Assembly (NCBI GenBank): GCA_001794055.1
Contig: MGJB01000011.1
Span: 1 to 36,662 of the forward strand
Direction of reading: 5' to 3'
Length of the DNA: 36,662 bases
From: Candidatus Yanofskybacteria bacterium RIFCSPHIGHO2_01_FULL_41_26
Lineage (GTDB): Bacteria > Patescibacteriota > Minisyncoccia > 2-02-FULL-40-12 > GWA2-44-9
In this document: positions 10,322-28,589 of the stretch, piece after piece
Numbering within the stretch: position 1 is the first letter of the stretch
Layout of the letters: every line of letters begins with the position of its first letter
Made by a program: the position numbers and the translations under genes
Notes under the pieces: generated by a model
The model's database searches: none
What the model saw: the letters and a program-made list of their open reading frames with translations, nothing else
Told to the model about the DNA's origin: nothing

Positions 10322-11191
10322 ATGGTTCACAAGCCTGTTCTTGTAAATGAAGTTATTGAGTATCTGAGCCTGGAGCCAGGAAATAAGGTGATTGATGCCA
10401 CCCTGGACGGAGGAGGACACGCTTTAGCAATTTTAGAAAAATTTAAAGACATAAAAATTTTAGGAATAGAATGGGATCCGGAACTGTTTAAAAATTTAAA
10501 AATAACAGATAGCAGATTAATAAAGATTAATGATAGTTATGTAAACTTAAAAAAAGTAGTAAAAGATTACAAGTTTGAACCAGATGGTATATTGTTTGAT
10601 CTTGGGTTGTCGTCATGGCATTACGAAGAAAGCGGCAGAGGATTTTCTTTCAAGAAAAATGAAACGTTGGACATGAGGTTTAACCAAGAAATTCAAACCG
10701 AAAGCGCTCTTGATATTGTGAATAAATCAAGCGAGGAGGAATTAAGGGAGCTGATAAGTTCTTTGGGCGAGGAACAGTTTGCCGGAAACATAGCCAAGAA
10801 TATTGTCCGAATCAGACGCGAAAAACCGATTGTGATGACAGGGGAGTTGGTAAGCGTGATAAACCAGTCGGTTCCTGATTGGTATAAGCATCGAAAGATA
10901 CACTTTGCGACCAAAACATTTCAAGCTTTGAGAGTTTCGGTAAACGATGAACTTGTAAATATCAGAAAAGGACTAATGGCAGCCATAGAGGTGTTAAAGC
11001 CTAAAGGAAGATTGGCGATGATAGCGTTTCAAGGATTGGAAAATAAAGTAGCCAAGGAAATTTTTAGAGAAAAGAAGAAAAATGGAGTCATAGAATTTGT
11101 GGTGAAAGGTGCGGTTAAACCTTCTTGGGAAGAACAAAAATCTAATCCGAGAGCGAGGAGTGCCAAGATGAAGGTTATACAGAAAATTTAA
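10322..11191 (+). CDS. rsmH: 16S rRNA (cytosine(1402)-N4)-methyltransferase RsmH
   Basis: HKPVLVNEVIEYL, DATLDGGGHA, ILFDLGLSSWHYE, KTFQALRVSVNDEL. Confidence 0.95.
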   Translation: MVHKPVLVNEVIEYLSLEPGNKVIDATLDGGGHALAILEKFKDIKILGIEWDPELFKNLKITDSRLIKINDSYVNLKKVVKDYKFEPDGILFDLGLSSWHYEESGRGFSFKKNETLDMRFNQEIQTESALDIVNKSSEEELRELISSLGEEQFAGNIAKNIVRIRREKPIVMTGELVSVINQSVPDWYKHRKIHFATKTFQALRVSVNDELVNIRKGLMAAIEVLKPKGRLAMIAFQGLENKVAKEIFREKKKNGVIEFVVKGAVKPSWEEQKSNPRARSAKMKVIQKI

Positions 11192-11225
11192 ACGGGATGG
11201 GAAGGAATGCCCTAGCCCTAAAAAA

Positions 11226-11579
11226 GTGACAGTAACCAAACATGCGGCCATGCCTATCGGCAGGCAGGTAGCTAAAGAGTTAAACCATAATTCAGTAAGT
11301 ACGGTTTTCCTGATAAACACAATTGTATTGTTAACTGTGGGACTCCTGGCGGTTTATTATGTAATTCAGGCCAACATAATTGCGGCCGGCAGTTATAAAA
11401 TAGACGTGTTAAACCAAAAACTCCAGTCTCTAAATGAGACTCACAGTTATTTGGCTGCCCAAGAGCTGTCAATGGAAGATCCGACGAGGGTTCTTAATTT
11501 TGCTTTAAGCAAAAACATGGTTGAAGCAAAAGATGCTGTTTATTTGTTTGAAAATGGAGAGGTGGCTTTGAGGCCATAA
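11226..11579 (+). CDS. FtsL-like small bitopic membrane protein in the dcw cluster
   Basis: Single TM helix plus coiled-coil-like region, located between rsmH and ftsI. Confidence 0.6.
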   Translation: MTVTKHAAMPIGRQVAKELNHNSVSTVFLINTIVLLTVGLLAVYYVIQANIIAAGSYKIDVLNQKLQSLNETHSYLAAQELSMEDPTRVLNFALSKNMVEAKDAVYLFENGEVALRP

Positions 11580-11580
11580 T

Positions 11581-13317
11581 ATGAAATTGCATGATAATTT
11601 ACGCATAAATATATTTTTTATTCTTGTCTTGATTGTTTCAAGCCTGATTTTATACAGGCTTTTTATTTTATCTTATATCCGACATTCGGTTTATTCCCGT
11701 ACTGCGACGGCTCAAAAAGATAATGTCACTAACATTTTGGCCCGGGGTAATATATACATGAATGATCCGGCATCAAATAGCTTATTTCTTGCCGCTACCA
11801 ATAAAAAGTTTCCCTTGGCTTACGTTGTTCCTACTAAGGTTGACTGGGCAAACGATGAGGAAAAGACGACCCAAGCAGCAGATATTTTAAAAGTTGACAA
11901 AAATTTAATTCTAAACACAATCCAATCAGGGCAGAATTATTCTAAAGTTTTGGCAAGAAGGCTTGATGCGAGTCAGGTTGAGGGTATAAAAAATTTAAAC
12001 TTAAGAGGACTAGGGATTTCATATGAAACTGACAGATTTTATCCTGGACAAAAATTGGCGGCTAATGTTTTGGGTTTTTTGGGATATGATTTGAACGGTC
12101 GTTCGGGACAATATGGGATTGAATCTTATTATGATGACGATCTTTTTGGCAGGGCAGGAGTAAAATCATCGACCGCGACAGGAATGTTTAGTTTTATTAA
12201 AAATATTGTTTATCGCAATAAGAAAAGTTCGCTGGCTGGTGAAAACGATGCATTCAACCGTCCGTCGGATGTTGTTTTGACTATAGACAAAAATATTCAG
12301 GCTTATGCAGAAGACAAGCTTGAAAATGTGCTGAAAAAATGGAATGCCCAAGGGGGGACAATTATTGTTCAGGACCCCAATACCGGCAAAATATTAGCTA
12401 TGGCCGATAAGCCGTCATTTGATCCTAATAATTATAGTGATTATCAATCCGGCTTGTTTTTGAATAAAGGCGTGCAAGAAGTCTTTGAGCCCGGTTCGTC
12501 TTTCAAACCCATAACGATGTCTATGGGACTAGATCTCGGCAGAGTTTCTTCTCAAACGACATTTACCGATGTTGGTTTTGTTCAAGCCGCTGAATATACA
12601 ATACATAATTTCAGCAACAAAATTTTCGGTTCTCAAACGATGTCTCAAGTATTGGAAAAATCCATAAATACCGGAGCCATGTTTGTCGAAAATCTTGTGG
12701 GTGATGAAAACTTTCTTAACTATGCCATCAACACCGGATTCGGACAAAGAACAGGCATAGATCTACCGGGCGAGGTAAACGGAGATATAACTAATTTATA
12801 CAGTGGGAGAAAAATTAATTATCTGACGGCATCGTTCGGCCAGGGAATTGCGGTTACGTCCATACAGCTTATTAATGCTTACTCGGCTATTGCAAATGGG
12901 GGCAAGCTTATGAAACCTTATGTTGTTGAAAAGATAATCAAAGAAGGAGGAGAAGAAGTGATTACCAAGCCGGAGATAATAAGCATTCCATTTTCAAAAA
13001 AAACATCAGACAAATTGAAGTCGATGCTGATTGGGGTGGTAGATAACGGCTTTGATAAAGCCAAGATTAAGGGGTATGATATAGCCGGTAAAACCGGGAC
13101 TGCGCAAATACCTGACGGGAAAGGCGGTTACGACAAAACGGAATTTATTCACGATTTTATGGGGTTTGCGCCGGCTTATGATCCTAAGTTTGTAATTTTG
13201 ATAAAAATGGACCGGCCCAAAGGTATTCAATTTGCCGCCGACAGTTTGTCTCCGACGTTCAGAGAAATGGCGCAGTTTTTAATTAATTATTACAAAATTC
13301 CACCTACTAGAAAGTAA
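11581..13317 (+). CDS. ftsI: Penicillin-binding protein, FtsI/PBP2-type transpeptidase
   Basis: FEPGSSFKPITMSMGL (SxxK), SINTGA (SxN), AGKTGTAQIPDGKGGY (KTG), dcw context. Confidence 0.9.
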   Translation: MKLHDNLRINIFFILVLIVSSLILYRLFILSYIRHSVYSRTATAQKDNVTNILARGNIYMNDPASNSLFLAATNKKFPLAYVVPTKVDWANDEEKTTQAADILKVDKNLILNTIQSGQNYSKVLARRLDASQVEGIKNLNLRGLGISYETDRFYPGQKLAANVLGFLGYDLNGRSGQYGIESYYDDDLFGRAGVKSSTATGMFSFIKNIVYRNKKSSLAGENDAFNRPSDVVLTIDKNIQAYAEDKLENVLKKWNAQGGTIIVQDPNTGKILAMADKPSFDPNNYSDYQSGLFLNKGVQEVFEPGSSFKPITMSMGLDLGRVSSQTTFTDVGFVQAAEYTIHNFSNKIFGSQTMSQVLEKSINTGAMFVENLVGDENFLNYAINTGFGQRTGIDLPGEVNGDITNLYSGRKINYLTASFGQGIAVTSIQLINAYSAIANGGKLMKPYVVEKIIKEGGEEVITKPEIISIPFSKKTSDKLKSMLIGVVDNGFDKAKIKGYDIAGKTGTAQIPDGKGGYDKTEFIHDFMGFAPAYDPKFVILIKMDRPKGIQFAADSLSPTFREMAQFLINYYKIPPTRK

Positions 13318-13321
13318 ATCC

Positions 13322-14647
13322 ATGTATAAATTATCCCAAATCATTGTAGAAATACTAGCTAAAATATATTTGTGGCGTTTTGACCCGAAAATTATTGGAG
13401 TTACCGGAAATGTCGGAAAGACATCCGCAAAAGAAGCAATCGGCTTGGTTGTAAGTAAAATTAAAAAAGTCAGAGTCGGTGGGGGAAATTTAAATAATGA
13501 AATTGGTCTGCCTTTTAATATTATTAGCGATTCAGTTGATGAATATTATGAGAAAGGCGGCAGTCTAATTTTTGGAATAAAATCTTTTTTTAAAGCAATT
13601 TTAGGCCTTCTCGGTTCTAACTATCCCGAAGTGCTTGTTTTGGAGTACGGAGCTGACAGACCGGGAGATATAAAAAAGTTATCTAAAAAATATAAACCGC
13701 ATGTTGGTGTAGTTACTGCGGTTGGGGAAGTGCCGGTTCATGTGGAATTTTTTTCTGGACCGGAGGGGGTGGCTCGTGAGAAAGGTCGACTGATTGAAGC
13801 ACTTTCAATTTCCGATTTTGCGGTTTTGAATTTTGACGATCTGGCGGTTCTTGAAATGAAAGAAAAAACAAAGGCTAAAACATTAACATATGGATTTGGT
13901 GAAGGGGCAACGGTACGAATCTCTAATCTTGAGCCATGGACAGAGAGCGGAATTCCTGAAGGAGTAAATTTTAAAATGAATTATAACGACACTCTCCATG
14001 GTGGCGGACAGGGTTTTGTGCCATTTAAACTAAGCGGTTCGTTGGGCAAATCCCAGGGTTATGCTGCTGCGGCCGCGGCCGCAGTCGGCTCAATTTTTGG
14101 CATGAATCTTGTTGATATAAGCGAAACTCTTTCCGAATATCAGGGACCGAAAGGGAGATTAAAAATATTGAAAGGAATTAAAAACTCCACAATTATAGAC
14201 GATACATATAATGCATCGCCTTTATCAACCCATCTTGCCCTAGAAACACTTAGAGATCTGCCTGCTGGCGAGGTGGGTTTACCGGGAACTCGGAAGATTG
14301 CCATGTTAGGTGATATGCTTGAATTGGGGAAATATACTATTCAGGCTCATCAGGAAATCGGCAATATGGCCGGAAGTTTTATTGACTTGCTTGTTTGTGT
14401 GGGTTCAAGGGCGAAATTTATCGCTGACAGTGCTTTTAATCAGATGCCCAAAGAAAATATTTACAGATTTGATACATCAGACGAAACAAAATTAAAAGTT
14501 AACGAATTAATTAATGAAGGGGATTTAGTTTTAGTGAAAGGTTCGCAGGGGATGCGCATGGAGAAAATTGTCGAAGAGATAATGGCCGAACCGGACAAAA
14601 AGAAAGAACTGCTCGTTCGCCAATCCGCTAAATGGCTCAAGAGATGA
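13322..14647 (+). CDS. murF: Mur ligase, UDP-MurNAc-tripeptide:D-Ala-D-Ala ligase-like
   Basis: GVTGNVGKTSAKEAI, IIDDTYNASPLS, KIAMLGDMLELG, VLVKGSQGMRMEKIV. Confidence 0.9.
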   Translation: MYKLSQIIVEILAKIYLWRFDPKIIGVTGNVGKTSAKEAIGLVVSKIKKVRVGGGNLNNEIGLPFNIISDSVDEYYEKGGSLIFGIKSFFKAILGLLGSNYPEVLVLEYGADRPGDIKKLSKKYKPHVGVVTAVGEVPVHVEFFSGPEGVAREKGRLIEALSISDFAVLNFDDLAVLEMKEKTKAKTLTYGFGEGATVRISNLEPWTESGIPEGVNFKMNYNDTLHGGGQGFVPFKLSGSLGKSQGYAAAAAAAVGSIFGMNLVDISETLSEYQGPKGRLKILKGIKNSTIIDDTYNASPLSTHLALETLRDLPAGEVGLPGTRKIAMLGDMLELGKYTIQAHQEIGNMAGSFIDLLVCVGSRAKFIADSAFNQMPKENIYRFDTSDETKLKVNELINEGDLVLVKGSQGMRMEKIVEEIMAEPDKKKELLVRQSAKWLKR

Positions 14648-16882: not shown

Positions 16883-16907
16883 CAAAATATGTATAATCGG
16901 CTAATAT
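16879..16907 (+). promoter_or_regulatory. rplU promoter giving a near-leaderless mRNA
   Basis: TTGACA (16879-16884), 17-nt spacer, TAATAT (16902-16907); ATG at 16917. Confidence 0.7.
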
Positions 16908-16916
16908 ATACAAACA

Positions 16917-17249
16917 ATGACTTTTGCGGTTATTAAAACAGGTGGCAAGCAATATAAGGTCGCCGAAGGCGACGTTTTAAGGGTTGAAAAACTTGCATCC
17001 ATAGACGGGTCTGCCTCCGGCGGAGAGGGTGGCGATGTCGTTTTTGAGGATGTTCTGTTGGTGGTTAATGGTGAAGTGAGGCTTGGAAAACCGATTGTTT
17101 CAGGAGCCAAGGTTACAGCTAAGATTTTAGAAGAAGGAAAGAGCAAAAAGAAAATGGTTTTCAAATATAAATCCAAAACTCGCCAGCACAAGAAAAAAGG
17201 CCACCGTCAGCCATACACCAAAATTCAAATAACAAAAATCATTGCTTAG
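16917..17249 (+). CDS. rplU: 50S ribosomal protein L21
   Basis: [26 protein letters not shown]...[52 protein letters not shown]. Confidence 0.95.
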
Positions 17250-27770: not shown

Positions 27771-27797
27771 TTAGCAGTCTTGACATGTGATTGCCAG
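27771..27797 (+). promoter_or_regulatory. Degenerate CIRCE-like operator over the hrcA promoter
   Basis: TTAGCAGTC-N9-GATTGCCAG; the N9 contains TTGACA (27780-27785). Confidence 0.4.
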
Positions 27798-27815: not shown

Positions 27816-28589
27816 ATGTTAAGGAATAGACAGGCTATGCCTACCGGCAGGCAAATAAAGCTGCTGGACTTCATAATAAGAGAGCATGTAAAAACCGCAA
27901 AACCGGTAGGGTCTGTTTTGATAGCCAAAAAAGCAGGTTTTAAGGTTAGTTCGGCCACTTTAAGAAATGAGATGGGGGCACTGGAGAAAGCTGGCTATTT
28001 GGCTCAGCTCCACACATCCGGCGGGAGGGTGCCAACAGACAAAGCTTACCGATACTATGTAAATTCTTTATTGGAGACCAAGAAAAATCTAAACCTTGAA
28101 ACGGGACATAAAAATAAAATCAAAGATGCGCTTAATGGGACACCTCCCGATCCAAGAGAAATAAATAAAGTTGTCGCCAGAGTATTGTCTAATCTTTCGG
28201 AAAATCTGGTAATAACTGGTATTTCACAGGATCAAGATTTTTTTAAAAAAGGGCTAGTAAGTTTATTTGAAAATCCGGAGTTTAAAGAATTTGGTGAAGC
28301 ATTTCAACTGGCCAAATTTTTTGAAGAGTTTGAGGGGATGTTTCAATTTATTGAAAGAGAATTCTTTAACACATTGGGAGCTCCACGAGGTGTGCCGGTT
28401 CAGATAATGATAGGCAAGGAGAGTCCTTTTAAGCAAATTCAACACGAAACAGTTATGTGTGCCAAATATGGCCTTCCGGGAAACTGTGTCGGTTCATTGA
28501 CACTAGTTGGGCCTACGAGAATGGATTATGAGAAAAATATCGCTTTAATCAAATTTATGACTGAAGAATTAAATAAATTAATTAAATAA
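27816..28589 (+). CDS. hrcA: Heat-inducible transcription repressor HrcA
   Basis: KPVGSVLIAKKAGFKVSSATLRNEMGALEKAGYLAQLHTSGGRVPTDKAYRYYV. Confidence 0.93.
   Translation: MLRNRQAMPTGRQIKLLDFIIREHVKTAKPVGSVLIAKKAGFKVSSATLRNEMGALEKAGYLAQLHTSGGRVPTDKAYRYYVNSLLETKKNLNLETGHKNKIKDALNGTPPDPREINKVVARVLSNLSENLVITGISQDQDFFKKGLVSLFENPEFKEFGEAFQLAKFFEEFEGMFQFIEREFFNTLGAPRGVPVQIMIGKESPFKQIQHETVMCAKYGLPGNCVGSLTLVGPTRMDYEKNIALIKFMTEELNKLIK

Follow-up and report, generated by a model that had tools for sequence, protein, structure and literature searches.

Seven extra residues in the HrcA of a Yanofskybacteria genome as a probable insertion of a dispersed 20-nt palindrome

The hrcA gene of Candidatus Yanofskybacteria bacterium RIFCSPHIGHO2_01_FULL_41_26 contains a short in-frame insert, and the seven residues that it encodes are very probably the product of the insertion of one copy of a dispersed, hairpin-forming 20-nt palindrome, CCTGCCTGCCGGCAGGCAGG. 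We analysed a stretch of 36,662 nucleotides of this genome (the window). The genome itself (G000; 799,807 bp in 18 contigs, GC 40%) was compared with that of a congener (G009), to which its aligned DNA is 73.5% identical. The open reading frame assigned to HrcA (Pfam PF01628, E 4e-22) has grpE and dnaK directly downstream, and the N-terminus encoded from position 27816 is MLRNRQAMPTGRQIKLLDF.

In the congener, AGACAGG is followed directly by TAAAAC, while in the window the corresponding AGACAGG and TAAAGC are separated by CTATGCCTACCGGCAGGCAAA; the G009 DNA reads ATGTTAAGTTCAAGACAGG before the junction and TAAAACTATTAGATTTC after it, 21 bases fewer than the window. At the protein level the insert adds AMPTGRQ (+7 aa) between MLRNRQ and IKLLDF, MLRNRQAMPTGRQIK being the peptide that spans it if translation reads through from 27816. 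This exact 21-nt gap confirms the seven-residue in-frame palindromic insert of the original prediction, which had placed it at 27831-27857; the element is indeed there, although the empty site sets slightly narrower limits, 27835-27855. Here, as in the other genes described below, insertion is read from gaps between species. The near-palindrome with one A-C mismatch that had been proposed was also recovered, as the 16-mer TGCCTACCGGCAGGCA, which pairs with itself in that way. With up to three mismatches allowed, this core gave four matches against 0.09 expected in shuffled sequence, the four being two sites (27838-27853 and 11251-11266, the second with one mismatch) counted on both strands. 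The features of the window are collected in Table 1.

Table 1. Features of the hrcA region and further palindrome copies in the window
Feature	Position	Strand	Basis
hrcA, heat-inducible repressor; insert after codon 6	27816..28589	+	Pfam HrcA; purifying selection outside the insert
21-nt in-frame insertion CTATGCCTACCGGCAGGCAAA in hrcA	27835..27855	+	G009 DNA lacks exactly these bases
20-nt palindromic unit, decayed copy of CCTGCCTGCCGGCAGGCAGG	27836..27855		consensus of family and phylum copies
16-nt core TGCCTACCGGCAGGCA of the hrcA insert	27838..27853		self-pairing except for one A-C pair
Second palindrome copy, AMPIGRQ, in frame; 21-nt gap in G009	11249..11268		DNA comparison with G009
Third family-A insertion (more diverged), in frame in a MurF-like gene; 21 nt, codes DLPAGE	14254..14274		census against G009
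Degenerate CIRCE operator TTAGCAGTC-N9-GATTGCCAG, 4 mismatches, overlapping a TTGACA promoter element	27771..27797	+	CIRCE search of the genome
In-frame ATG within the insert, possible alternative start giving MPTGRQIKLLDF	27837..27839	+	MPTGRQ aligned over MLSSRQ

The consensus of the copies from the window genome, the family and the phylum is a 20-nt perfect palindrome, CCTGCCTGCCGGCAGGCAGG, with unconserved flanks, a hairpin energy of -13.9 kcal/mol and no stop codon in any frame. The hrcA copy differs from it at 5 of 20 positions, the decay lying at the outer positions. Regarding its spread, copies of the 16-nt core were found in 20 of 28 family genomes; at up to two mismatches there were 8-14 copies per genome in G000 and G009 and 24 in G015, the family maximum. 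In an even sample of 382 genomes over the phylum, 132 carried a total of 801 copies at up to one mismatch, and the reversed-pattern control gave around 3. The distribution is patchy, with 250 of the 382 genomes lacking copies and a maximum of 63 in a single one; the genomes compared are probably metagenome-assembled. In the genome with 63 copies (G325; L201, L202, L205, L207), several pairs lie 52-53 nt apart, like REPIN/BIME doublets, inside a longer repeat.

HrcA is present in 27 of the 28 family genomes, and the seven residues are missing from every readable N-terminus except that of G014. The alignment of relatives thus supports the view that the residues are not a universal part of the protein, the sole other carrier having a palindromic insert of its own. 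The G014 protein reads MMTLRHACLPARQAKVL where its congener G013 has MFTLRQAKVL, and the underlying 21-nt gain, CATGCCTGCCTGCCGGCCAGG, is spelled differently and sits at the same Arg-Gln codons as the insert of the window. The two hrcA inserts are best read as two independent insertions. A CIRCE-anchored pattern applied to 387 genomes of the class returned, among the matches listed, none resembling a further hrcA insertion; the pattern is narrow and misses variants, including both known hrcA cases. Directly upstream of the insert-bearing hrcA of G014 (L307, C16) lies a gene for a Y1 transposase, flanked by hairpins of its own; G013 likewise has a Y1 gene upstream of hrcA, yet no insertion.

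An unbiased census of the well-anchored indels of 15-30 nt that separate G000 from G009 gave 112 cases; 76 of these had a length divisible by three, and the length distribution peaked at 21 and 24 nt. Family A, defined by CCTGCCTGCCGGCAGGCAGG, accounted for 11 of them (0.1 with shuffled inserts), family B (CCCTTCGACAAGCTCAGGG) for 13, mostly 24-nt insertions (0.3 with shuffled inserts), and family C (CCTCCGCCAGCTGGCGGAGG) for 4 (0 with shuffled inserts). Together, the three palindromic families made up 28 of the 112 indels, against 0.4 by chance. Nine of the eleven family-A gaps were of 21 nt. At C18:13975 of G000, outside genes conserved in both species, the family-A insertion is exactly 20 nt long and shows no target duplication.

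The genome-wide repeat search that the original prediction called for found the palindrome dispersed and also in frame in other conserved genes (gene names other than HrcA and GrpE were assigned by reading of the sequences): gaps fall exactly at the element in PriA-like and FtsK-like genes (7 aa each), in PGK (6 aa, 18 nt), in a tRNA-binding-domain gene and in several genes of G015. The host of the copy at 11249-11268 is a conserved 135-aa membrane-type ORF (window 11172-11576). Of the family-A copies in G000 and G009, 9 lie inside and 11 outside genes conserved between both species. All nine in-gene copies read in the LPAGRQ/MPxGRQ frame, a count that includes the shared pair G000_C8:14045 / G009_C2:194191 in a pseudouridine-synthase-like gene, which may be native sequence. 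The other two frames of the palindrome would introduce a cysteine, a possible reason for this bias. Two further genes of the window carry insertions relative to the congener. The MurF-like gene (13283-14644) has two separate 21-nt in-frame insertions, at 13992-14012 and 14254-14274, the first of which resembles a CCATGGTGGCGG palindrome, and a bL21-looking gene (16905-17246) has a 24-nt in-frame insertion, ATAGACGGGTCTGCCTCCGGCGGA, at 17001-17024.

Three sites are recurrent: hrcA (G000 and G014), PGK and the tRNA-binding gene. In the last, relatives read ..EQRQILSGIAK and the element stands at the conserved RQ in G000, G005 and G006; at the site that family A occupies in these three, G004 (L248) carries a family-C palindrome, CCGCCAGCTGGCGG. 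The PGK site is common to two genera (G009 and G026), and 21 other sequences are free of the insert. Target DNA resembling AGGCAG, which matches the arm of the element, is found at two of the three recurrent sites, the arm microhomology being clear for hrcA and for the tRNA-binding gene; in PGK, the relatives show GCCGG, which resembles the centre of the element. Target sites in the FtsK gene and in the gene at 11251 showed no clear match to the element, so the rule that these sequences suggest, in which tolerant sites and short matches would guide insertion, is tentative.

One could argue from such matches that no dispersed element is needed at all, and that template switching at the similarity between AGACAGG and CGGCAGG built the quasi-palindrome in place by local mutation. 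At hrcA, CAGG stands both ahead of and within the insert, whose net gain is 21 nt, and a number of insertion sites look like either the arm (GGCAG) or the centre (GCCGG) of the palindrome. Nevertheless, the same 20-nt consensus is found at unrelated sites and across the phylum, which mutation in place would not yield, and the FtsK and C18:13975 inserts match the consensus yet seem to be without arm similarity. We therefore regard purely local mutation as very unlikely, while template switching may still serve as the mechanism by which the palindrome is copied.

A second explanation concerns the agent of movement: the element would be a REP, mobilised by a RAYT/IS200-like Y1 (HUH) transposase of the genome. 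Genes for Y1_Tnp are present in 15 of the 28 family genomes, two of them in G000, and an exact insertion without target duplication suits Y1-type movement. Over the 382 genomes, a Y1 gene was detected in 42 of 54 with at least five copies and in 99 of the 250 that had none (odds ratio 5.3), and the association held when families were taken as strata (MH odds ratio 7.6, permutation p 1e-4), these statistics resting on genome sampling and hand-tabulated within-family strata rather than on a tree; the control transposase domain rve gave an odds ratio of 1.8 (p 0.07). The positions of the copies speak against it. Leaving the hrcA copy of G014 apart, just one of 40 Y1 loci has a copy within 400 nt (at 75 nt), and many Y1 genes have flanking hairpins of their own that are different. 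The GTAG tag was found in 4 of 192 flanks, compared with 4.8 in shuffled sequence, and CGTC in 4 of 192, compared with 6.0. Moreover, twelve genomes with 6-40 copies gave no Y1 match, and within the family G004-G006 hold 5-14 copies and no Y1. We thus consider it unlikely that the element is such a REP, although a Y1 protein may act on the palindrome in trans. The window also contains a RAYT-like Y1 transposase ORF (207 aa, 1120-1740), followed by a 50-bp perfect palindrome, GACATTTACAATGGGGGTCTTTGTATACAAAGACCCCCATTGTAAATGTC, at 1742-1791; 14-mers of the latter occur about 15 times in the genome.

The reading that we favor is that a copy of the dispersed palindrome was inserted into hrcA. The element would be non-autonomous, selfish or neutral, with its copies made in trans, the likeliest routes being a hairpin intermediate of single-stranded DNA and template switching where short stretches match its arms. 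In hrcA it would have landed beside the conserved codons for Arg-Gln, where AGACAGG resembles the CGGCAGG arm of the element. With one extra nucleotide the 20-nt unit would come to 21 nt, which would leave the reading frame open and free of stops, and selection would retain insertions in tolerant places such as loops and termini, mostly in the x-LPAGRQ-x frame. The hrcA site precedes the winged helix, where the extra residues are probably neutral.

Outside the insert, the HrcA of the window is 95% identical to that of G009, with dN 0.027 and dS 0.71 (dN/dS ~0.04), so the gene is under strong constraint; the comparison suggests that HrcA carrying the insert stays functional. In the HrcA of T. 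maritima (1stz), the only solved homologue by sequence, around 14 residues precede the same motif, and a short N-terminal addition is thus plausibly harmless. A single-sequence AlphaFold model of HrcA reached a pLDDT of 34.5, too poor for use.

Whether the seven residues reach the protein depends on the start codon. The real start could be the ATG inside the element, at 27837, so that the product would be MPTGRQIKLLDF, of native length, and the insert would lie 5' of the gene and add no residues. In favor of this start, MPTGRQ aligns without gaps over MLSSRQ of the congener, AAGGA stands 11 nt upstream, and REPs at predicted N-termini have often been judged non-coding for such a reason (PMC3733652). 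Initiation at 27816, in contrast, would give the N-terminus MLRNRQAMPTGRQ. Family members keep a CIRCE-type operator over the TTGACA box, with the ATG close after the -10 region; this conserved geometry puts 27816 right after the -10, as in a leaderless start, and favors initiation there and translation of the insert. Judging by the same geometry, the hrcA mRNA is probably leaderless. The MLxxRQ codons have also been retained upstream of the insert, and in other genes the palindrome insert is internal. The hrcA insert of G014 has its ATG in another frame (CAT GCC) and must there be read through. On balance, we consider a start inside the element unlikely. The operator of the window is the only CIRCE-like site in the genome at up to four mismatches, so HrcA may regulate its own operon only.

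The degenerate state of that operator, with its four mismatches to CIRCE, could also be taken together with the insert as a sign of adaptation, for instance if an mRNA hairpin at codons 7-14 lowered the translation of hrcA. The first 65 nt fold at -16 kcal/mol, compared with -2.9 in the congener, but this folding is not clearly beyond what composition predicts (z -1.5). Besides, like insertions in PGK, FtsK, PriA and other genes point to a general process that is not specific to hrcA, and we regard an adaptive origin as very unlikely.

Palindromes that encode protein have been known chiefly from Rickettsia and Wolbachia. The original prediction had likened the hrcA insert to the Rickettsia RPEs, and the likeness holds for behavior, since in both cases a palindromic repeat is found intergenically and in frame within conserved protein genes, housekeeping genes among them. 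It does not extend to identity: as outlined for Ogata 2000 in PMC2229807, RPEs are palindromes of 105-146 bp with 12-bp inverted ends, inserted in frame in protein genes, whereas our element is a 20-nt perfect palindrome without separate ends that adds 7 aa, and copies of one sequence are shared by many families of a phylum. No sequence relation between the two was seen. The GTAG/CGTC REPs, including RPE-4/RPE-6, occur within genes too, many of them replication and repair genes (PMC3733652). With these the element shares the form of a short hairpin-forming palindrome (20-40 nt) in many dispersed copies, some in genes, but it has no adjacent GTAG or CGTC tag and its copies do not flank Y1/RAYT genes. 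It thus works like an RPE or an intragenic REP and falls outside both definitions as tested, because of its size and its lack of the tag. The RAYT/TIRYT-like hairpins of the same genomes are likewise dispersed, but differ in sequence and sit beside Y1 genes. Palindromes within coding sequence are also described in the mitochondria of Nematomorpha, where, going by the features given for them in PMC6649704, they are long (up to 284 bp), mitochondrial and not a dispersed unit of fixed sequence. For the DNA and peptide strings of the element, and for palindromic repeats in Patescibacteria, we found no report in the open-licence literature, as judged partly by title and abstract.

Taken more broadly, we tentatively propose, as an idea that has a reasonable chance of proving right but that we would not yet bet on, that phylum-wide minimal palindromic elements (the 20-nt unit and its relatives) insert blocks of 7-8 codons at recurrent sites in the essential genes of Patescibacteria, and rank among the main sources of indels in the proteins of these reduced genomes. 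Compared with the elements known before, a much smaller and almost invariant unit recurs here in genomes from across a phylum whose members are mostly uncultured, and together with two sister palindrome families it makes up one in four of the indels of 15-30 nt that separate two congeners. This raises the question of what copies a 20-nt palindrome. It also carries a warning for annotation, as LPAGRQ or PTGRQ strings in such proteins may be repeat-derived. For the organisms themselves, it would offer a simple and testable way in which the essential proteins of reduced genomes acquire short blocks of peptide.
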